Source of the DNA: Larkinella soli
Lineage (GTDB): Bacteria; Bacteroidota; Bacteroidia; Cytophagales; Spirosomataceae
NCBI RefSeq assembly: GCF_003703975.1
Contig: NZ_QTJY01000011.1
Span: 62,001-126,000, forward strand
Reading direction: 5' to 3'
Length of the DNA stretch: 64,000 nucleotides
The stretch's first letter is position 1. Each line of letters opens with the position of its first letter. Below are positions 48,332-58,118 of this stretch, one piece after another. The notes under the pieces are model-generated. The model had not been told where the DNA came from and did not search any database. It worked only from the letters and a program-made list of their open reading frames with translations. A program made the translations under genes and the position numbers.

Positions 48332-48484
48332 ATGAAAAAGCAAATTGCCAAACTGTCACTGAAAACCGATCAGATCGTTTCTCTCTCCAAAGCGCAGGCT
48401 CAAAACGTGCTGGGCGGTATGCGCCCGGTGAAGATTTCGGACACCAACTGTTCGACGCACCAGGGTTGCCCGGTTAAGTTTTAA
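48332..48484 (+). CDS. Class I lanthipeptide precursor with double-glycine leader
   Basis: 50 residues. The leader runs from 1 to Gly28-Gly29 and reads MKKQIAKLSLKTDQIVSLSK in its first part, then AQAQNVLGG. The LSLKTDxIVSLS pattern resembles leaders of Bacteroidota class I lanthipeptides, and the GG end fits the C39 peptidase of the exporter in the operon. The core (30-50) holds Ser36, Thr38, Cys40, Ser41, Thr42 and Cys46: two Cys and four possible dehydration sites, no Cys at the end. Likely rings are Ser36-Cys40 (or Thr38-Cys40) and Ser41 or Thr42-Cys46 (inference). The gene is short enough to be missed by automatic gene callers. Start by ATG; followed by a hairpin. Confidence 0.9.
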   Translation: MKKQIAKLSLKTDQIVSLSKAQAQNVLGGMRPVKISDTNCSTHQGCPVKF

Positions 48485-48542
48485 TCCGCCGGGCCAGGCC
48501 CTTTCCTTGCAGAAAGGCGCTCTTTCCCTTCTCCGATGCCAA

Positions 48543-48581
48543 AGGCCCGGGCAGCCGCTCCCGCAGGGGCTGCCCGGGCCT
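48543..48581 (+). promoter_or_regulatory. GC-rich hairpin between precursor and modification genes
   Basis: Perfect 14-bp stem, arms aggcccgggcagcc and ggctgcccgggcct, loop of 11 nt, with no T-run after it. It lies 58 nt after the precursor stop and 37 nt before the LLM gene. Such hairpins in RiPP operons act as partial terminators or protect the short precursor mRNA, so that precursor outnumbers the enzymes. Confidence 0.7.
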
Positions 48582-48618
48582 GATTCCCGACACACCTCCA
48601 CTATACTGCCTACACCCC

Positions 48619-49551
48619 ATGAAATTAGGTCTTCTCGAATTCGGGACCGGCTGCATCAGTCCGCTCGACATTGTTGAAAACGTCTTGATTTACGCCGAAA
48701 AAGCGGAAACACTCGGGTTTACCCGATTCTGGCTGGCCGAACATTACGGGGCCTCCCCGGCCTACTGCAACCCGGAGGCTCTGGTGCCCATCATCGCGGG
48801 CCTGACCAGCCGCATCAAGGTGGGGGTGGCCGGGCTGCTGATGGCCTACCACAACCCGTTCCGGGTGGCTTCCGCCTTCAAACTGCTCAACAATCTCTTT
48901 CCCGGCCGCATCGACCTCGGCCTGGCAAAGGGCCGGGTTCCCGGCGAAATCGGGGCCTACCTTTCGCCGGATCTGGACGTCTCCGACCCGGCGGTTTGGT
49001 CCGACACACTCCGCCGGAACCTGAATGATCTCGTCGCCTACCTGACGGCCGACGGACACGCCGGGCTGATCACCCCCCGGACGGGCTACACGCCCGAACT
49101 CTGGACGCTGGCCTCCGGCCTGAACAATATCGAAGCGGCCGTTCAGCTGGATACCGCCCTCTGCAAGTCGCTGTTCCACCATCGCATCGACGACCCGATC
49201 CGGGAAGCCGAAACGCTTCTCCAATACCGGGAAGCGTATTATCAAAAGCATAAAAAACGGCCGGTGGTCAATCTGGCCGTGGCCGGCATCTGCGCCGAAA
49301 GCGGCCGGGAGGCCCGCCGGATCCGGGAGTCGCTGAGCCGACCGGCCGCCACCTACAACGAACTGATCGGCCCTCCTGAATTCATTCGGGACGAACTTTT
49401 CAAACTCGGCGAACTCTATGGCGTCGATGAGTTCATCTTTCTGAATCTGGCCGAAAAAACCAGCCAGAAGCTGAAGGGAATAACGCTGCTGGCCCGCACC
49501 TTTTCCACCGCCGTCAATCCGGTTTTCACCCCCCTCACCGAAGCCGTATGA
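48619..49551 (+). CDS. Luciferase-like (LLM) flavin-dependent oxidoreductase in the lanthipeptide operon
   Basis: 310 residues. The TIM-barrel of the bacterial luciferase-like family is shown by MKLGLLEFGTGCISPLDIVE, FTRFWLAEHYGASPAYCNPE and the strand-loop LFPGRIDLGLAKGRVPGE, as in group 1 luciferase family oxidoreductases. Binding of FMN (or F420 in some families) is expected. In actinobacterial lanthipeptide pathways, LLM-fold LanJC enzymes reduce dehydroalanine/dehydrobutyrine to D-residues using F420H2. Bacteroidota are not known for F420, so FMN is likelier here. Reduction of leftover dehydro-residues is an inference; an oxidation of the peptide is the alternative. The stop overlaps the LanC start (ATGA). 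Confidence 0.88.
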   Translation: MKLGLLEFGTGCISPLDIVENVLIYAEKAETLGFTRFWLAEHYGASPAYCNPEALVPIIAGLTSRIKVGVAGLLMAYHNPFRVASAFKLLNNLFPGRIDLGLAKGRVPGEIGAYLSPDLDVSDPAVWSDTLRRNLNDLVAYLTADGHAGLITPRTGYTPELWTLASGLNNIEAAVQLDTALCKSLFHHRIDDPIREAETLLQYREAYYQKHKKRPVVNLAVAGICAESGREARRIRESLSRPAATYNELIGPPEFIRDELFKLGELYGVDEFIFLNLAEKTSQKLKGITLLARTFSTAVNPVFTPLTEAV

Positions 49552-50759
49552 TGCTCACCGTTACCTCCGGAACTCCAGCGACGGCCCAGCTGGTCGGTCG
49601 CCTTGCCGCCCGCATTTCCCGGCAGCCGGTGGAAGGGAACGTCTCCCTCCTGACCGGGCAGACGGGTTTCGCCCTGGTGGAAGCCTATAGCCGGATCCTC
49701 GACCCGGCATTCGGGTCGGATCGGACGCTGGACCGGCTGCTGGCCGGCCTGTCCGCCATTCAGCAGGGCGAACTGACGCATCATTTTGCCTCGGGTATGG
49801 CCGGGGTGGCCTGGGGCTTCCTGCACCTGAGCCGCCGGGGCCTGATCGATGTGGAGCCTGCCGAAGCCCAGGCCATCGTGGCCGATCTCGACGAACCGCT
49901 GTTCGAACTATCGCTGGACGACCTCCGCCACGGGAATTTCGACTACCTGTACGGCGGGCTGGGTGCCGGTCTGTACTTCCTCGAACGGAAACCGACTCCG
50001 ACGATCAGCCGGTACATGGAACTGCTGGTTGAAGAGCTGGCGGCCCTCGCGGTCCGGTATCCCAACGGCGATATCACCTGGCCGTTCCTGGACCTGGGCC
50101 GCCGGAGTCTTTCGGACCCTCCGCTGTACAATCTGGGGCTGGCCCACGGAACGGCCGGGGTGGTGGTGCTGCTGGCGCTGTTCCGGAAATACGGCTTCGC
50201 CGGTGTCCGCTGCGCCGAACTGATGCAGGGCGGATTGCAGTGGCTCTGGAACCAGCGCAACACGGCGGGCCGGTCGCGGTTTCCGAATAGGGTCGGAGAA
50301 AACCGGGAGAATCAGGAAAGCCGCCTGGGCTGGTGTTACGGCGACCTCGGGGTGGCCCATGCCTTCTGGATGGGGAGCCGGGCGCTGAACCATGCCGACT
50401 GGAAGGCCGTAGCCCTACAGACGACCCTGCACGCAGCCCGTCGCCGGGACCTGTCGACGGGGCCTGTTCACGACGCGGGCCTATGCCACGGTTCGGCCGG
50501 TTTGGCGCACCTGTTCCGGTGGGCGGCCCGGCGGATGGCCCACCCCTATCTGGCTGAAACTGCCGACTACTGGCTGGAACAGACCCTTCGCTTCGCCCGG
50601 GCGGAGACGGACGACGACGTTTTCCGGGCGTTCAACCACGAAACCGGCCACTACGAATCTCACCCCGGCCTGCTCCAGGGAGAAGCCGGGGTGGCGCTGG
50701 CCCTGCTCGGGGCGCTCGACCAACCGATTGGCTGGGACCGACTGATGCTTCTCTCCTGA
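49548..50759 (+). CDS. lanC: LanC-type lanthionine cyclase
   Basis: 403 residues, normal for LanC. The zinc-binding residues of NisC-type cyclases are all present: Cys263 in GWCYGDLG, and Cys313-His314 in GLCHGSAG. The helper His200 in NLGLAHGTAG fits NisC His212. The double alpha-barrel pattern with repeated G-x-x-G loops is clear (YLYGGLGAGLYFL, LLQGEAGVALAL). It adds Cys thiols to dehydrated Ser/Thr to form lanthionine rings in the cytoplasm. Overlaps the upstream oxidoreductase stop by 4 nt and is followed 6 nt later by LanB. Confidence 0.95.
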   Translation: MMLTVTSGTPATAQLVGRLAARISRQPVEGNVSLLTGQTGFALVEAYSRILDPAFGSDRTLDRLLAGLSAIQQGELTHHFASGMAGVAWGFLHLSRRGLIDVEPAEAQAIVADLDEPLFELSLDDLRHGNFDYLYGGLGAGLYFLERKPTPTISRYMELLVEELAALAVRYPNGDITWPFLDLGRRSLSDPPLYNLGLAHGTAGVVVLLALFRKYGFAGVRCAELMQGGLQWLWNQRNTAGRSRFPNRVGENRENQESRLGWCYGDLGVAHAFWMGSRALNHADWKAVALQTTLHAARRRDLSTGPVHDAGLCHGSAGLAHLFRWAARRMAHPYLAETADYWLEQTLRFARAETDDDVFRAFNHETGHYESHPGLLQGEAGVALALLGALDQPIGWDRLMLLS

Positions 50760-50765
50760 CCGAAG

Positions 50766-53700
50766 ATGGCAACGACTCCGTTTCAAACCGCCTTTGTCCG
50801 GGTGCCGCTGGCGCCCTGGTCCCGGCTGGAGGCTCTGGACCTGACCACGCTCGCCGACCGGCTCCGCGACCCGGCCTTTCGGGAAGCCCTGTACATAGCC
50901 TCACCGGCCTTATACGCCGAGGCCGTCGCGCTGGATTTCAGCCGGGAGCCGGACGAAAAAAGCCGCCGGGTAGTGTATGCGCTGGTGAAATACCTGTCCC
51001 GGTATTCGGCCCGCTGCACCCCGTTCGGGCGTTTCAGCGGCTTCTCGACCCTGCCCATCGCGCCGGGGCCGACGCAGGTCCGGTTGACCACGGACGGAAC
51101 CGTCCGAAAGGTGACCCGGCTCGATATGAATTACCTCTGCGCGTTGGCTCAGGACCTCGAAAAACACCCGGCCATTCGGCCTTTCCTGCGGTTTTATCCC
51201 AACTCCAGCCTGTACGCCGTCCGTGACCATTATCGGTACATCGCCTACCGGTATGATTCGGCGGGGCTGCGGAAACACCACCTGTTGCGGGCCGACCGGA
51301 CCGACTACCTCGATGGGGTGCTGGACAAGGCAAAACCGGGGGCCACCGTTGTCCAGCTGGCCGAATCGCTGGTGGATGCGGAGATCACCCGGGAGGAGGC
51401 CGACGCCTTTGTGGGTCAGTTACTGGACGCCCAGCTGCTGGTGAGCGAACTGGAACCGGCCCTGACCGGCGACGATTTTCTGCTTCAGATTCTAACTACC
51501 CTCAAAACCGTTCAGGAAAATCATCCTTCGGACGAGCTGGGCAGCCTCCTGAATCTGATGAAGGAAATCCGGACCGACCTGAAGGCCCTGGAAACGGCGG
51601 ACCCGTCGGAATGTCCGGGTAATTACCGGAACATCGAGGAAAAGCTCCGTCGGATGACGACGCCTTTCGACCGGAAGGTGCTGTTTCAGATCGACACCTG
51701 GCTGCCCGGCACCGAAGGCGGGTTGAGCCAGGGGCTGATCAACAAGCTCATTTCGAAAATACCGGCGCTAATGAAGCTGGTTCCTGCCGGAAATGCGGTA
51801 ATGGAGGCCTTCAAGGCCCGGTTTCTGGATCGGTACGAACAGGAAGAAATCCCGCTGGTGGTGGCGCTGGACCCGGAGCTCGGCATCGGCTACCCGGCCG
51901 GACAACCGGGCAGCGATCTGTCTCCGCTCGTGGAGGGACTCGAAACCGGAACCCCCGAACTGACGGACACCTTTACCGTCCCGGCCGAACACCGGCTTTT
52001 GTTCCAAAAGATAGCGGAGGCTCAGGTTCCCGGGGAATATGAAATCTGCCTCCGGGAAGATGACCTCCGAACCCTTGAACCGGCCCCCGTCGACCTGCCT
52101 CCCACCCACTCGGCTATGTTTTCCGTCTTTCGGGAAGGGGGCCGGGAGAAGCTGATTCTGAACGCCTTTGGAGGGCAGAACGGCAGTTACCTGCTGGGCC
52201 GTTTCGGCCATACCGACCCCTCGGTGCCGGCGCTGTTGCAGGAAATCAGCCGGGCCGAAGACGAAGAAAACCCTGGCGTCCTTTTTGCCGACCTCGTTCA
52301 CCTGCCGGAAGCCCGAACCGGCAACGTCATCATCCGGCCCCGCCTGAAAACCTACCAGATTCCATTCCTCGGAAAAGCCTCGGCGGAGCCGGAGCATCAG
52401 ATTCCGGTGACGGACCTGATGGTGAGCGTCCGGGCCAATACCGTCCGGCTGCGGTCGCGGTCGCTGAACCGGATCATCGTGCCGAGGCTGTCGAACGCCC
52501 ATCATTTTTCGCAGGCCAACGCGCTGGATATCTACCATTTCCTTTGCGACCTTCAGGCCCAGCACCAGCGAACGTCGCTCAGCTACCTGCTGGGTCCGGC
52601 CGTGGAGATATTCAGCTTCATTCCCCGCATTTCACTGGACACCCTCCTGCTGTCGGAAGCCCGCTGGAATTTTCGGGATACGCAGGTAAAAGACCTTGTG
52701 GCTGCCTTTAAAACCGGTTCCTGGTCCGGGCTGCGGGAGGAAATCGACCGCTGGCGCAGTCGGTTCCGCATCCCCCGGCACCTCTGTCTGGTCGAAGGCG
52801 ACAACGAACTGTACGTCGATCTGGAAAACCGCCTTCTGGCCGAAACGTTTGTTCATGAAATCAAATCCCGGCCCCGCTTCACCGTCCGGGAGTTCCTGTA
52901 CCGGGACGAAACCGCCGTGGTGGAATCCGGGGCCGGTCGCCACCTGAACCAGTTTGTGGTTGCTTTCCGCAATGGGCAGGAGCCTGCCGGAACGGAACGC
53001 GCCCGGCCTGAGATCCAAACCGTTCCGACGGTGACCCGGAAGTTTATGCCCGGTTCGGAATGGCTGTATGTCAAGCTGTATTCCGGCATCAAAACCGCCG
53101 ACACGCTGCTGACGGACGTCCTGCTGCCGCTGACCGAACAGCTGGAAGCCGAGGGCCGGATCACCCGGTATTTCTTCATCCGGTATGCCGATCCCGATGC
53201 CCACCTCCGGTTCCGCTTCCATCTCACCGACCCGGCCGAAACCGGCCCCGTGATGAGCCGGCTGTATACGGCCCTGAACCCGCTCCTGGCCGAGCGGACG
53301 GTCACCTCCGTTCAGACCGACACCTATCACCGCGAGGTGGAGCGCTACGGCGAAACCGCCATGGAAATCGCCGAGTCGTTTTTCCACATCGACAGCCGGA
53401 CCATCCTGCATTTCCTGACCCGGATCGAGGGAGCGGAAGGGGAAGAATACCGCTGGCGGTTCGGGCTGAAGCTGATCCACGACCTCCTCGATCGGATGGA
53501 TATGTCTTTGAAAGACCGCATCGAACTGACGGGACAGCAGGCCAGGTTCTTCGGCAAGGAGTTTGGGTACAATGCCGACCGGAAGAAACAGCTCGACCAC
53601 CGTTTCAAAGCCGTCGAAGGGGTTATTCAGGACCTGCTGGACGAAACCGGGGAGGAGCACCAGTTCCTGTACGACCTCAGCCGGGCCCGTTCCGAACACC

Positions 53701-53948
53701 TGCGCCGACCGGCCGAAGCCGTCCAGTCGCTCCGGCGATCCGGACGGTTCGGGCTTTCGCTGGAGGACTGGCTGGCGAGTCAGATTCACATGACCGTCAA
53801 CCGCCTGTTTCGGACCCGCCAGCGGGTGGTGGAATATGCGCTCTACTATCATCTCCACAAAGCTTACCGCATCCGGTACGGACGGCAGGTTCTGTCGCAG
53901 CCCCCGGCCGAAGAAACCGTTTTCTCGATTTCCCTATCCAACCCATGA
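50766..53948 (+). CDS. lanB: Full-length LanB-type lanthipeptide dehydratase
   Basis: 1,060 residues, so the glutamylation and elimination domains sit on one chain. Glutamylation domain (Lant_dehydr_N, about 50-640) carries SRYSARCTPFGRFSGF at 78-93, the characteristic tRNA-Glu/peptide-binding block. Elimination domain (SpaB_C, about 760-1045) has WLYVKLYSG at 766 and RYADPDAHLRFRF (806-818; Arg815, Arg817), TYHREVERYG (Glu857, Arg860) and IHMTVNRL (His1008). By comparison with NisB from memory, these match R784, R786, E823, R826 and H961, so the enzyme looks active. It glutamylates Ser/Thr from glutamyl-tRNA and eliminates glutamate. The stop overlaps the exporter start (ATGA). Confidence 0.95.
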   Translation: MATTPFQTAFVRVPLAPWSRLEALDLTTLADRLRDPAFREALYIASPALYAEAVALDFSREPDEKSRRVVYALVKYLSRYSARCTPFGRFSGFSTLPIAPGPTQVRLTTDGTVRKVTRLDMNYLCALAQDLEKHPAIRPFLRFYPNSSLYAVRDHYRYIAYRYDSAGLRKHHLLRADRTDYLDGVLDKAKPGATVVQLAESLVDAEITREEADAFVGQLLDAQLLVSELEPALTGDDFLLQILTTLKTVQENHPSDELGSLLNLMKEIRTDLKALETADPSECPGNYRNIEEKLRRMTTPFDRKVLFQIDTWLPGTEGGLSQGLINKLISKIPALMKLVPAGNAVMEAFKARFLDRYEQEEIPLVVALDPELGIGYPAGQPGSDLSPLVEGLETGTPELTDTFTVPAEHRLLFQKIAEAQVPGEYEICLREDDLRTLEPAPVDLPPTHSAMFSVFREGGREKLILNAFGGQNGSYLLGRFGHTDPSVPALLQEISRAEDEENPGVLFADLVHLPEARTGNVIIRPRLKTYQIPFLGKASAEPEHQIPVTDLMVSVRANTVRLRSRSLNRIIVPRLSNAHHFSQANALDIYHFLCDLQAQHQRTSLSYLLGPAVEIFSFIPRISLDTLLLSEARWNFRDTQVKDLVAAFKTGSWSGLREEIDRWRSRFRIPRHLCLVEGDNELYVDLENRLLAETFVHEIKSRPRFTVREFLYRDETAVVESGAGRHLNQFVVAFRNGQEPAGTERARPEIQTVPTVTRKFMPGSEWLYVKLYSGIKTADTLLTDVLLPLTEQLEAEGRITRYFFIRYADPDAHLRFRFHLTDPAETGPVMSRLYTALNPLLAERTVTSVQTDTYHREVERYGETAMEIAESFFHIDSRTILHFLTRIEGAEGEEYRWRFGLKLIHDLLDRMDMSLKDRIELTGQQARFFGKEFGYNADRKKQLDHRFKAVEGVIQDLLDETGEEHQFLYDLSRARSEHLRRPAEAVQSLRRSGRFGLSLEDWLASQIHMTVNRLFRTRQRVVEYALYYHLHKAYRIRYGRQVLSQPPAEETVFSISLSNP

Positions 53949-56182
53949 AAACTCTGCTCAAAACGGTAGTCGGCGGAAAACGCAGTTCCTACGGTCTGGT
54001 CGACCGGTTTCCTTACGTCGGGCAGGGCGGGCTGATGGACTGCGGACCGACCTGTCTGGCGATGATCCTCCAGCACTACGGTCTGGCCGACGCCCGCGCG
54101 CTCCTGACCCGGCTTTCCGGCATCACCCTCGAAGGCACGAGCCTGTACACGCTCATGGAAGTGGCCGAAAGTTTCGGCTTCAGGGCGGAGGGATACGAGC
54201 TGGACTACCACCAACTCAGCCGGATTCAGCTGCCCTGCATCGCCCACTACGAGGGGCAGCATTTCGTGGTGGTATACGAGGCCACCGACACGCACGTGCG
54301 GGTGGCCGACCCGGCTTTCGGCAAAACGCGCTATACGAAGGAGGAATTTACCAACAAGTGGAGCGGCATCGTGCTGGAACTGAAACCGACGGAAGCTTTT
54401 TACCGGAACGAGGACCTGGTAGCCTCCGTCCGGCAGGTGAAGGCAGAGAAAAAAAGCGTGTTCCGGCAGCTCTACCGGCCTCTTCTGAAGGAGAACCGGC
54501 GGGTAATCGGTGAAATATTTTTCTTCTCCCTCCTGCTCGAACTGGTTGGGCTGGCGCTGCCGCTGTTTACCCAGACCATGCTGGATAACGTGCTGGTCAA
54601 CCAGAACCGGCGGCTGCTGGTGGGTATTCTGGTCGGGCTGATGCTGGTGTTCGTAGTACAGGTCGTGCTGACCTACACCCGGAGCATGCTGATGGTGCAT
54701 TCCCGGTTCCGGATCGAGATGGACTTCATGTCCGCCTTTTTCGAGCGGTTCATTTCCCTGAAACAAAGCTATTACGACCGCCGGAAGCGGGAGGAGTTCA
54801 TGGCCCGGTTTCAGGAGGGCGTCGGCATCCGGCAGTTCACCAACCCGGTCATCCTCCAGAACTTTCTGGACATCGCCTTCATGCTGATCTACTTTCCGGT
54901 GCTGTTTTTCTTCAATACCGCCCTGGCCGGCATCGCTCTCTCCTGCTTTCTGGCTTACGGGCTGACGACGGTATACTTCATCCCGATCGTGCGAAACCTG
55001 CGCTCGAAGGTGTACTACAAAAACCAGGCGTCGATGGGCGGTTTTCTGGACGCGGTGCTGGGCATCAAAACCGTCAAACTGCTGTCGCTCGAAAAATACC
55101 GGCTGACCCGCTGGAAGCAGGTACACCGGGAGTCGATCAACTCGGTGATGCAGGACGAACAGAAGCAGATTCTGATCAACTCCCTCCAGAAACTGATCTT
55201 CATTTTCAGCCAGGTAGCCGTTTTCTGGGTAGGAGCCTATGAGGTATTTACCGGATCGCTCAGTATCGGTCAATACATGGCGTTTACCTCCATTTTCATG
55301 ACGGTCATGAACGCGGTAAACAGTGTTAGCGCCCTCTGGATGATGGTAACGCAGGTCAGCGTCAGCTTCGACAAGATCAACGAGCTGTTTCTGGAAGAGC
55401 CGGAAAACCGCGATTTCCAGACAAAAACAAGTCAGTTTTCGACCGAACTCATCCGGTTCGATAACGTCTCCTTCCGGTATGGTACGCGGGATGAAAACTA
55501 CATCCTGAAAGACCTGAACCTGGACATCCGGCAAGGCGAACGTATCGGCATCGTCGGACGGAACGGCACCGGCAAAACGACCTTCGTGAAGCTGCTGGTC
55601 AACCTCTACCCCGACTATGAAGGCCGCATCCTCTTCGGGTCGCAGGAACTGCGGAACCTCCATCCGGGGGCGCTTCGGAAACGGGTGTTTCTCTTCCCCC
55701 AGGAAACCTATGTCTTCAATGAAACCATCCGGGAAAATATCCGCTGCGCCAACCTGTCGGCCACGACCGAGCAGGTGGTGGAAGCCGCCCGGCTGGCCGA
55801 CCTGCACGATTTCGTAAAAAGCCATGCCCTCGGATATAACCAGATGGTGGGCAGCGGGGGCAGCAACCTCTCGGGCGGGCAGGTGCTCAAAATCGGCTTT
55901 GCCCGCCTGTTCGTGACCGACCCCGCCCCGGACGTCATCATACTCGACGAAGCCGGCAGCGCCCTCGACGTGGAAACCGAGCGCCGGATTCTGAATAACC
56001 TCTACAAACGGTTTCCGAAAACCACCATCCTTTCCATCGCCCACCGGCTCCACACCCTCCGCAACGCCGACCGGATTCTGGTCTTCGACGGCGGCACCAT
56101 CACCGAGCAAGGCTCGCACCCGGAACTCATGAGCCGCCGAAACCTCTATTACGACTTTATGAAAACCTACATAGATTATTGA
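53945..56182 (+). CDS. C39 peptidase-containing ABC exporter of the lanthipeptide
   Basis: 745 residues from the ATG at 53945. N-terminal C39 peptidase (about 20-150): Cys33 in LMDCGPTCL, His106 in EGQHFVVVYE and Asp122 in RVADPAFG form the catalytic triad that cleaves after Gly-Gly leaders. The membrane domain (about 185-475) has six helices. The ATPase has Walker A GRNGTGKTT (538-546), signature LSGGQ (642-646) and Walker B VIILDE ending Asp668-Glu669. It trims and exports the product through the inner membrane, with the HlyD protein encoded next. An upstream in-frame extension is a shadow of the LanB reading frame. Confidence 0.96.
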   Translation: MKTLLKTVVGGKRSSYGLVDRFPYVGQGGLMDCGPTCLAMILQHYGLADARALLTRLSGITLEGTSLYTLMEVAESFGFRAEGYELDYHQLSRIQLPCIAHYEGQHFVVVYEATDTHVRVADPAFGKTRYTKEEFTNKWSGIVLELKPTEAFYRNEDLVASVRQVKAEKKSVFRQLYRPLLKENRRVIGEIFFFSLLLELVGLALPLFTQTMLDNVLVNQNRRLLVGILVGLMLVFVVQVVLTYTRSMLMVHSRFRIEMDFMSAFFERFISLKQSYYDRRKREEFMARFQEGVGIRQFTNPVILQNFLDIAFMLIYFPVLFFFNTALAGIALSCFLAYGLTTVYFIPIVRNLRSKVYYKNQASMGGFLDAVLGIKTVKLLSLEKYRLTRWKQVHRESINSVMQDEQKQILINSLQKLIFIFSQVAVFWVGAYEVFTGSLSIGQYMAFTSIFMTVMNAVNSVSALWMMVTQVSVSFDKINELFLEEPENRDFQTKTSQFSTELIRFDNVSFRYGTRDENYILKDLNLDIRQGERIGIVGRNGTGKTTFVKLLVNLYPDYEGRILFGSQELRNLHPGALRKRVFLFPQETYVFNETIRENIRCANLSATTEQVVEAARLADLHDFVKSHALGYNQMVGSGGSNLSGGQVLKIGFARLFVTDPAPDVIILDEAGSALDVETERRILNNLYKRFPKTTILSIAHRLHTLRNADRILVFDGGTITEQGSHPELMSRRNLYYDFMKTYIDY

Positions 56183-56184
56183 TA

Positions 56185-57456
56185 ATGAATACAGTACTAA
56201 AAGACCTGACGGAGGCTCAGTATGCCGACCTCTACCATGTGGACGACGCTCCCCTGCCCGATCTCCGGCTGAAGGCTCTGCAACGGCTGGGCTGGTGGGC
56301 GGTGCTGCTGGTGGCGGCCGGATTTGCGGCCGGGTTCCTGATCGTGCTGCCGGACACCATCCCGACGGGGTTCGTCTTCAAGTCCGAGCAGGCGGAAGCC
56401 GTCTTTCGGTTTCCGGCACCGGTGTACATCGAACGGCAGATGGTGCGGAACGGACAGACCGTAAAAGCCGGGGACGACCTGCTGGAACTCAGCTCCCCGG
56501 ACATAGCCGCGCTGGCCCACGACCTGGAAGCCGCCCGGTCGAACCTGGACCGTTTCCGTCGATTCCGGACGGCATCGGCGGCCAGCGAGCAGGACGGCAT
56601 CCGGCTGACCATCCGACGCATCCGGGAAACGCTTGCCCTGAAGGAATCCCGGCGCGTCATGGTGGAAACGAAATGGGCTTCCGAATCCAAACGGCTGGAG
56701 TACGAGCGGGAAGAAGCCGGGCGGCTGCTGAAGCTGAACCGTGACCTGTTTACCCAGTCGGTCATCAGCCGCAACGATCTTCACCAGTTCGAGGCCGCAG
56801 CCCTGAAAACCCAAAGCGCTTTCGATCTGGCTTACCAGACGTATCTGGACCAGCGAAGCACCCTTACCCGGGAAATCACGTCCGGGAAGCTGGAAATCAA
56901 TACCCTCGAAACACAGATCACGAAGAATACCGGCGACCTGCTCGGGGAAGAAAACCGGCTGGAAGCGGCCCTGAGAACAGCCCGCATCCGCATCGAGAGC
57001 CTGTACGGCCCCTTCGAGCTGACCGGTCATCACCACCTTCGGCTGAAAGCCGCCCGTGCCGGGACGGTTTCCTTCCTGTTTGAAGGCGAAAAGCAGGTAC
57101 CGGCCGGGACTACCCTGCTCAAACTGATGCACCGGGAGGCTCCCCTCTACGGCCATGCGCGGGTTACGTCGTCCCAGATCGGAAAAATCCGGGCGGGCCA
57201 GCGGGTGGTTCTGAAAGTAGACGCCTACCCGGTGTATGAATTCGGGCCGGTATACGGCGACATCTCGGCCGTCTCGCTCACCCCCGACGAAAAAGGGCTG
57301 TTCAACGTCCGGCTGCGGGTGACCCATGAAAATGCGCTGGAAAACCGCCTGAGAATCGGCCTGCGGGGACAGGCCGACATCATTACCGATGAACGAACGA
57401 TCTTCGGCCACCTGACCCGCAGTTTCCGGAAGGCGGCATCCGACCTGACGGATTAG
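56185..57456 (+). CDS. HlyD-family membrane fusion (adaptor) protein of the exporter
   Basis: 423 residues from the ATG at 56185; a TTG six nt earlier overlaps the exporter stop. Short cytoplasmic N-tail, one membrane helix (about 35-57), then the lipoyl/hairpin architecture: split lipoyl halves around 70-105 and 285-310, a long coiled coil (about 120-270) and a C-terminal beta-barrel (315-400). It bridges the ABC exporter and an outer-membrane TolC channel in Gram-negatives. No TolC gene lies in the window, so a housekeeping channel must be used. It is the last clear gene of the operon. Confidence 0.93.
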   Translation: MNTVLKDLTEAQYADLYHVDDAPLPDLRLKALQRLGWWAVLLVAAGFAAGFLIVLPDTIPTGFVFKSEQAEAVFRFPAPVYIERQMVRNGQTVKAGDDLLELSSPDIAALAHDLEAARSNLDRFRRFRTASAASEQDGIRLTIRRIRETLALKESRRVMVETKWASESKRLEYEREEAGRLLKLNRDLFTQSVISRNDLHQFEAAALKTQSAFDLAYQTYLDQRSTLTREITSGKLEINTLETQITKNTGDLLGEENRLEAALRTARIRIESLYGPFELTGHHHLRLKAARAGTVSFLFEGEKQVPAGTTLLKLMHREAPLYGHARVTSSQIGKIRAGQRVVLKVDAYPVYEFGPVYGDISAVSLTPDEKGLFNVRLRVTHENALENRLRIGLRGQADIITDERTIFGHLTRSFRKAASDLTD

Positions 57457-57596
57457 TCCCGTCGTGATCTGCCTCATCGGGACACCCCCGCCCAAACGCG
57501 AATACACCGAAAAGTTCGTTTCCATAAATCAGCAGGTGAGGGATGAAATACCGGCCTGAAGCCTTTACTTTGCTTTTTTAACCCCAATTGCCTTTT

Positions 57597-58118
57597 ATGA
57601 AAACACTTTCCGTTCTGACCACCGCCCTGTTTTTTGCCCTGACCATCACCGCCCGCGCCCAGGCTCCCGAGGCCAAACTGAAAGAAATGGGCATTACCCT
57701 GGCCGCCCCCTCCCCTTCCTTAGCCAATTACGTCAAAGCCGTCCGGACCGGCAGCCTGGTCTATCTCTCCGGCCACGTATCGAATCGGGCCGACGGCACC
57801 GGCATCAAGGGCAAGGTGGGCAAAGACCTGAGCGTCGAGCAGGGGTACGAAGCCGCCAAACTCTGCGCCCTCGGTCTGCTGTCTTCGCTGAAGGCCGAAG
57901 TCGGAGATCTCGGTAAGGTGAAGCGAGTGGTAAAGGTACTCGGCATGGTCAACTCCGCCCCCGAGTTCGCCGACCATCCGAAGGTCGTCAACGGCTGCTC
58001 CGACCTGTTGGTGGCGGTTTTCGGCGACCGGGGCAAACACGCCCGTTCCGCCGTCGGCGTGGCCGCCCTGCCCTCGGATTACGCAGTCGAGGTGGAGATG
58101 ATCGTGGAGGTGGAATGA
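57597..58118 (+). CDS. Secreted RidA/YjgF-like protein
   Basis: 173 residues from the ATG at 57597. RidA domains are normally cytoplasmic and about 130 residues long; this one has an added signal peptide (MKTLSVLTTALFFALTITAR, cleavage near ARAQ). The RidA core follows (LVYLSGHVSNRADGTG, KVLGMVNSAPEFADHPKVVN, HARSAVGVAALPSDYAVEVE); the Arg that lines the active site in imine deaminases is retained (HARSAVG). Cytoplasmic RidA hydrolyses reactive enamines; the periplasmic role is unknown. It follows the lanthipeptide operon by 140 nt and is probably separate. Confidence 0.88.
   Translation: MKTLSVLTTALFFALTITARAQAPEAKLKEMGITLAAPSPSLANYVKAVRTGSLVYLSGHVSNRADGTGIKGKVGKDLSVEQGYEAAKLCALGLLSSLKAEVGDLGKVKRVVKVLGMVNSAPEFADHPKVVNGCSDLLVAVFGDRGKHARSAVGVAALPSDYAVEVEMIVEVE

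Follow-up and report, generated by a model that had tools for sequence, protein, structure and literature searches.

Pinensins are reportedly class I lanthipeptides of Bacteroidetes, and a luciferase-like monooxygenase (LLM) of the GarO/ActO type is said to make the sulfoxide of actagardine, a class II product of Actinobacteria. As described in the text sections of Walker et al. 2020 covered here (PMC7268733), almost one in four LanCs of class I is found in Bacteroidetes, where class I precursors carry an LxLxKx5L leader, many of them GG-ended and often with a C39 protease, and the pinensin LanB is split. The system analysed here lies at positions 48332-57456 of a 64,000-nucleotide stretch of Larkinella soli DNA (the window; assembly GCF_003703975.1, contig NZ_QTJY01000011.1, positions 62,001 to 126,000 of the forward strand). 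It is an operon of six genes, almost certainly for a class I lanthipeptide, that is mostly of known kind, the well-delimited exception being the chemistry of its LLM-class enzyme.

The Bacteroidetes GG/C39 clusters, like the window, combine LanB and LanC with a C39 peptidase and a GG leader that contains a leucine/lysine motif, yet no LLM is named for them in the covered text sections; the leader motif reads [LI]xLK (by eye) in the window and LxLxK in those clusters (PMC7268733). The window LanB is a single chain, not split as in the pinensins. A first-pass annotation of this DNA had contrasted this single chain with the split LanB of the pinensins and suggested that, together with LLM and C39 genes, it may represent a less described subtype. 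That a single-chain LanB is unusual in Bacteroidota, or that LanB with C39 is a less described subtype, was not borne out: 77 of the 150 host-family genomes sampled have a LanB match, 113 of the 121 listed LanB rows (counted by hand) are held by open frames of about 960 amino acids or more, and clusters with LanB and C39 were published for Bacteroidetes in 2020 (PMC7268733, in the part covered).

Two further clusters are among the closest known systems. LanI-101 of Runella limosa is a class I cluster from the same Genome Taxonomy Database family and from a species with a 56% identical LanB (Ayikpoe et al. 2022, PMC9576775, seen in part); no LLM was found in its locus as far as read (L019, L121), and its cores differ from that of the window. 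On Spirosoma oryzicola plasmid NZ_CP089546, the RefSeq annotation names six class I lanthipeptides, two LanCs, an LLM, a peptidase-domain ABC transporter, a lantibiotic dehydratase and HlyD. That cluster is unlike the window in its two LanCs (one without zinc ligands), its SCC/SC-rich cores and its LLM of about 40% identity; it occupies NZ_CP089546.1 25160-54077 (L135) on the 98.5-kb plasmid and includes a histidine kinase/response regulator pair. LLM-class enzymes in lanthipeptide clusters are likewise represented by GarO/ActO and by the LanJC reductases (LxmJ, Cao12 and the birimositide LLM).

An LLM branch beside LanB

Homologue sets were drawn from samples of 150 genomes of the host family and 395 of the phylum. 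LLM genes are common, with a match of some kind in 98 of the 150 family genomes, as would be expected if the window LLM were a housekeeping oxidoreductase sitting in the operon by chance. The 79 best-scoring LLM rows among the matches listed (at least 74.2 bits; weaker rows left out) were, however, sharply divided in their genomic context: all 18 close homologues (at least 129 bits) have a LanB match no more than 6 kb away, while for none of the 61 distant ones (74-94 bits) does a listed LanB match lie closer than 15 kb. The 18 stand in 15 clusters, three of which hold two close LLMs in tandem. In the phylum sample, three further matches of at least 140 bits all adjoin LanB (3 of 3), and two at 98-103 bits do not.

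A tree was built from 22 cluster LLMs (metagenome locus L033 among them) and 17 others, the distant LLMs being limited to those with retrieved loci. The two sets fell on opposite sides of a single branch with a support of 100/100, and every branch member adjoins LanB (21 of 21 sampled, 22 counting L033). Moreover, all 8 of the distant family clusters have their LLM immediately behind a LanC, the window LLM overlaps LanC, and the window genome has a separate, distant LLM (G000:C13). The chance-bystander reading was rejected on the co-location counts and the tree split, and is very improbable. The same results support, and strengthen, the suggestion of the first-pass annotation that the LLM may mark a subtype. 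The enzyme very likely acts on the peptide as a tailoring enzyme. Among the titles and abstract openings listed in searches of open-access literature, none concerned an LLM in Bacteroidota class I lanthipeptide clusters.

Gene content and layout of the operon

Six open reading frames (ORFs), all on the plus strand and tightly packed, make up the operon, and family profile scans assigned every one to a family:

48332..48484, + strand: lanthipeptide precursor, 50 amino acids, leader 1-29 (GG end), core 30-50 with 2 Cys and 4 Ser/Thr (NF038158)
48543..48581, + strand: stem-loop between precursor and enzyme genes (fold z -3.35)
48619..49551, + strand: LLM-class flavoenzyme, 310 amino acids (PF00296; nearest solved structure MsnO8)
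49548..50759, + strand: LanC cyclase, 403 amino acids (PF05147; alignment with NisC; zinc triad C263, C313, H314 intact)
50766..53948, + strand: single-chain LanB dehydratase, 1060 amino acids, glutamylation and elimination domains (PF04738 457 bits, PF14028 223 bits)
53945..56182, + strand: ABC exporter with C39 peptidase, 745 amino acids (PF03412, PF00664, PF00005)
56185..57456, + strand: HlyD-type periplasmic adaptor (PF13437; start set by comparison with relatives)

ATGA overlaps join LLM to LanC and LanB to the C39 exporter, and LanC is separated from LanB by 6 nucleotides. The HlyD ORF as called opens at TTG 56179, but the proteins of relatives begin at the position of ATG 56185, which is the likelier true start; counted from there, 2 nucleotides separate C39 from HlyD. 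The first-pass annotation had described an intact, same-direction operon of six named genes joined, among the enzyme and export genes, by ATGA overlaps or gaps of 2-6 nucleotides, and the ORF positions and family matches agree with it throughout. The residues it named for LanB, LanC and the C39 peptidase were likewise all found at the numbers given.

In LanB, the residues R815, R817, E857, R860 and H1008 do not vary across the 31 sequences aligned (33 were taken and 2 dropped as short reads), and this protein is the sole PF04738 match in the genome. LanC residues D132, H200, R259, C263, C313 and H314 align with NisC, and all 7 LanCs from Larkinella share them. Thus three marks of class I are present: a LanB with both domains and intact catalytic residues, a separate LanC with its zinc ligands, and a precursor with a class I leader and a Ser/Thr/Cys core. 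The exporter carries C33, H106 and D122 of an N-terminal C39 domain fused to an ABC transporter and has a GG substrate, as in peptidase-containing ABC transporters; among solved structures, its best relative along residues 22-740 is the ABC-type bacteriocin transporter 4ry2. Families, catalytic residues and leader profile together support the earlier claim that this Bacteroidota genome holds an operon for a class I lanthipeptide.

The C-terminus of LanB also matches TIGR03891 (thiopep_ocin), and thiopeptides and pearlins are examples of LanB-dependent additions driven by glutamyl-tRNA. A LanB-dependent peptide without thioethers, made by such additions, is nevertheless extremely improbable here, as LanB keeps both of its domains and the residues for elimination, the operon has a LanC with its zinc ligands in place, and Ser/Thr and Cys are paired in the core of 15 of 15 precursors (below).

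Several observations concern LanC in general. Its position shifts within the genus, being before LanB in the window and in L009 (52% identical) and after HlyD in L010-L014 (42-44%), so that each position seems to have a LanC lineage of its own. Outside the operon, the window genome has another LANC_like match (G000:C2:477428-478510, 192.8 bits). LanC paralogues without the zinc triad were found in L111-L118, L131, L132 and L136-L139; each of the 8 distant family clusters with an LLM has a zinc-less LanC beside the intact one, and in genomes G233, G436, G046, G010, G045 and G065 every LANC_like match found is without the triad. The zinc-less LanC as an LLM-specific partner was dropped, since it also turned up in four LLM-free clusters once the search was widened.

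Two neighbouring genes were also considered. A gene for a RidA-like protein with a signal-like N-terminus (57588-58118) follows the operon downstream, but was rejected as a member since it had no match in the cluster stretches of six relatives. A class I Glu/Gln-type tRNA synthetase gene (797-2500), within the window and 46 kb from the operon, is probably housekeeping, although LanB uses glutamyl-tRNA.

Precursors and relatives of the operon

Seven of nine Larkinella genomes, the window genome included, carry the window LanB, and the six relatives each have LLM, C39, HlyD, LanC and one to four precursors within the stretch read (that of L013 stops at a contig edge). The genes, their intactness, their conservation and their co-location are read directly from the sequence. 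In three relatives, response regulator-like and sensor kinase-like ORFs, judged from their translations, lie upstream of the precursor (L009 4735-7360, L012 11605-14183, L014 6086-8610); an esterase-like gene stands there in the window. Scanning named genomes yielded 40 LanB loci, spread over Larkinella, Runella, Spirosoma and Rhodocytophaga, further Bacteroidota at greater distance and a few others; many of these loci have LanC, C39 and HlyD nearby. Contigs of metagenome-assembled genomes labelled Bacteroidales (labels as deposited) carry LanB genes (L028, L035, L037, L038, L043-L045, L051 and others); a 2023 survey, in the part covered, did not find LanB genes in Bacteroidales (PMC10352776).

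The window precursor scored 56 bits (cut-off 27) against NF038158 lant_leader_L1b, a curated NCBI model of class I lanthipeptide leaders, and is the sole leader match above cut-off in the whole genome. By eye, the leader MKKQ..K[LI].L[KQ]TD..I..LSK.Q...GG or a close variant is present in 15 of 15 precursors (14 from the six Larkinella relatives plus the window), and all 15 have Ser/Thr four residues ahead of the first core Cys and [ST][ST] straight after it. From this conserved spacing, the window pairs would be S36-C40 and S41 or T42-C46, with T38 and one more residue left.

Cores of LLM clusters are not uniform. The motif [ST]Cx3[ST]C was found in 32 of 47 cores (6 of 10 clusters) of the distant LLM clusters versus 6 of 50 cores (5 of 24 clusters) of LLM-free ones, counts in which the clusters are related, some hidden Markov model rows may be spurious, duplicate loci were removed by hand and L114 yielded no precursor. 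As an LLM-linked core motif it is a lead only, and it occurs in 0 of 14 Larkinella cores. Possession of an LLM does not go with any single core layout.

The 134-nucleotide gap after the precursor holds the stem-loop listed above, with 14 consecutive pairs; its z score was obtained against shuffles, a test applied to the window stem-loop alone. The same gap folds into a stem-loop of different sequence in 5 of 5 relatives readable there. Judging from these folds, the element is probably an RNA stabiliser or partial terminator that would raise precursor mRNA over enzyme mRNA.

Predicted pathway and chemistry of the LLM

The cofactor was approached by family, fold and host. MsnO8 (TIGR03558) is the strongest family model and is matched by 19 of 19 branch members. 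The predicted LLM structure (mean pLDDT 86.7) has apo-MsnO8 as its best match (TM 0.80, 26% identity), and ranks 1-24 of the fold matches are luciferases or monooxygenases. The first F420 enzyme stands at rank 25 and is KvPepI, probably an enzyme of pepstatin biosynthesis. F420 synthesis requires cofH; with the host judged by this gene alone, none over cut-off was found in its genome (28.7 bits versus 374), and 3 of 14 control genomes passed. From the likeness to MsnO8, the luciferase and monooxygenase folds, the lack of a match to the F420 domain (below) and the cofH result, the LLM looks to be of the flavin mononucleotide (FMN) type by descent.

The proposed pathway is class I lanthipeptide maturation and export plus tailoring by an FMN-type LLM, with oxygenation likelier than reduction; we consider it probable as a whole, each chemical step being inferred. 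LanB would recognise the GG-leader precursor, glutamylate Ser/Thr using glutamyl-tRNA and then eliminate glutamate to leave dehydro residues. The zinc-dependent LanC would add the two Cys to them, giving two small rings, most likely those paired above. The dedicated LLM would tailor the dehydrated or cyclised peptide. The C39 domain would cut the leader off at its GG end (residue 29), and the ABC transporter and HlyD together would export the peptide, presumably via an outer membrane channel encoded elsewhere. In the covered part of the study on an R. limosa class I cluster, expression in Escherichia coli gave four to six dehydrations and three (methyl)lanthionines (PMC9576775); the cluster used may be that of the 56% identical LanB or that of a second LanB place of R. 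limosa (G097:C1).

For the LLM itself, oxygenation, for example to a thioether sulfoxide, is given about an even chance. The enzyme could instead be a functional LanJ that reduces left-over dehydroalanine or dehydrobutyrine (T38 and one of S41/T42) to D-Ala or D-aminobutyrate, with FMN replacing F420. Reduction of dehydroalanine by LLM proteins has been reported or proposed for lexapeptide (PMC8068269) and birimositide (PMC7268733), both sources covered in part. Ser/Thr exceed Cys by one to three in 14 of 14 Larkinella cores, and by two in the window core, whereas 10 of 47 cores of the distant LLM clusters are without a surplus. Glutathione became attached to dehydro residues in the Runella product (PMC9576775, in the part covered), so that their removal could be useful. 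However, both LxmJ and Cao12 contain the F420 domain MSMEG_4879 (PMC8068269, likewise), and against its model TIGR03564 the window LLM scores 17.7 bits (cut-off 234) and 0 of 19 branch members reach E 1e-5. With these scores and no cofH above cut-off in the host, a LanJC of the LxmJ/Cao12 kind was rejected, and reduction of a left-over residue in general is possible but the less probable course. By analogy we lean, without proof, to oxygenation, which is the norm among the FMN relatives of the LLM, while reduction has precedent in lanthipeptide LLMs.

Several points weigh against the proposed pathway with its oxygenating LLM. The LLM scores 143 bits against the MsnO8 cut-off of 166.95 and so falls short of membership in TIGR03558, and the Ser/Thr surplus of the 14 Larkinella cores fits a reductase equally well. 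Around the close LanBs of Runella, Spirosoma and Rhodocytophaga, the stretches read showed no LLM, so that the LLM appears unnecessary for ring formation, and Spirosoma arboris (L024) has a precursor of Larkinella-like layout and lacks an LLM within the stretch read. Among the six genes and the flanking genes scanned, nothing was recognisable as an immunity gene, a regulator or an outer membrane channel. Finally, in the covered part of PMC9576775, none of the class I clusters gave efficiently modified peptides.

The pathway otherwise follows the standard course, and each kind of gene in the operon already has a name in public annotation; the useful part is a defined LLM branch beside LanB. With a two-Cys core of 21 residues and one LanB, LanC and LLM, the window operon is a small system in which mass could reveal the chemistry of this branch, at +16 Da for oxygenation and +2 Da for reduction. 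It is an evenly balanced prospect that the branch constitutes a lanthipeptide tailoring enzyme of its own across Bacteroidota class I clusters, which would be FMN-dependent, outside the LxmJ/Cao12 lineage and responsible for a modification not yet reported in class I, be it an LLM-made thioether sulfoxide, another oxygenation or an F420-free reduction.

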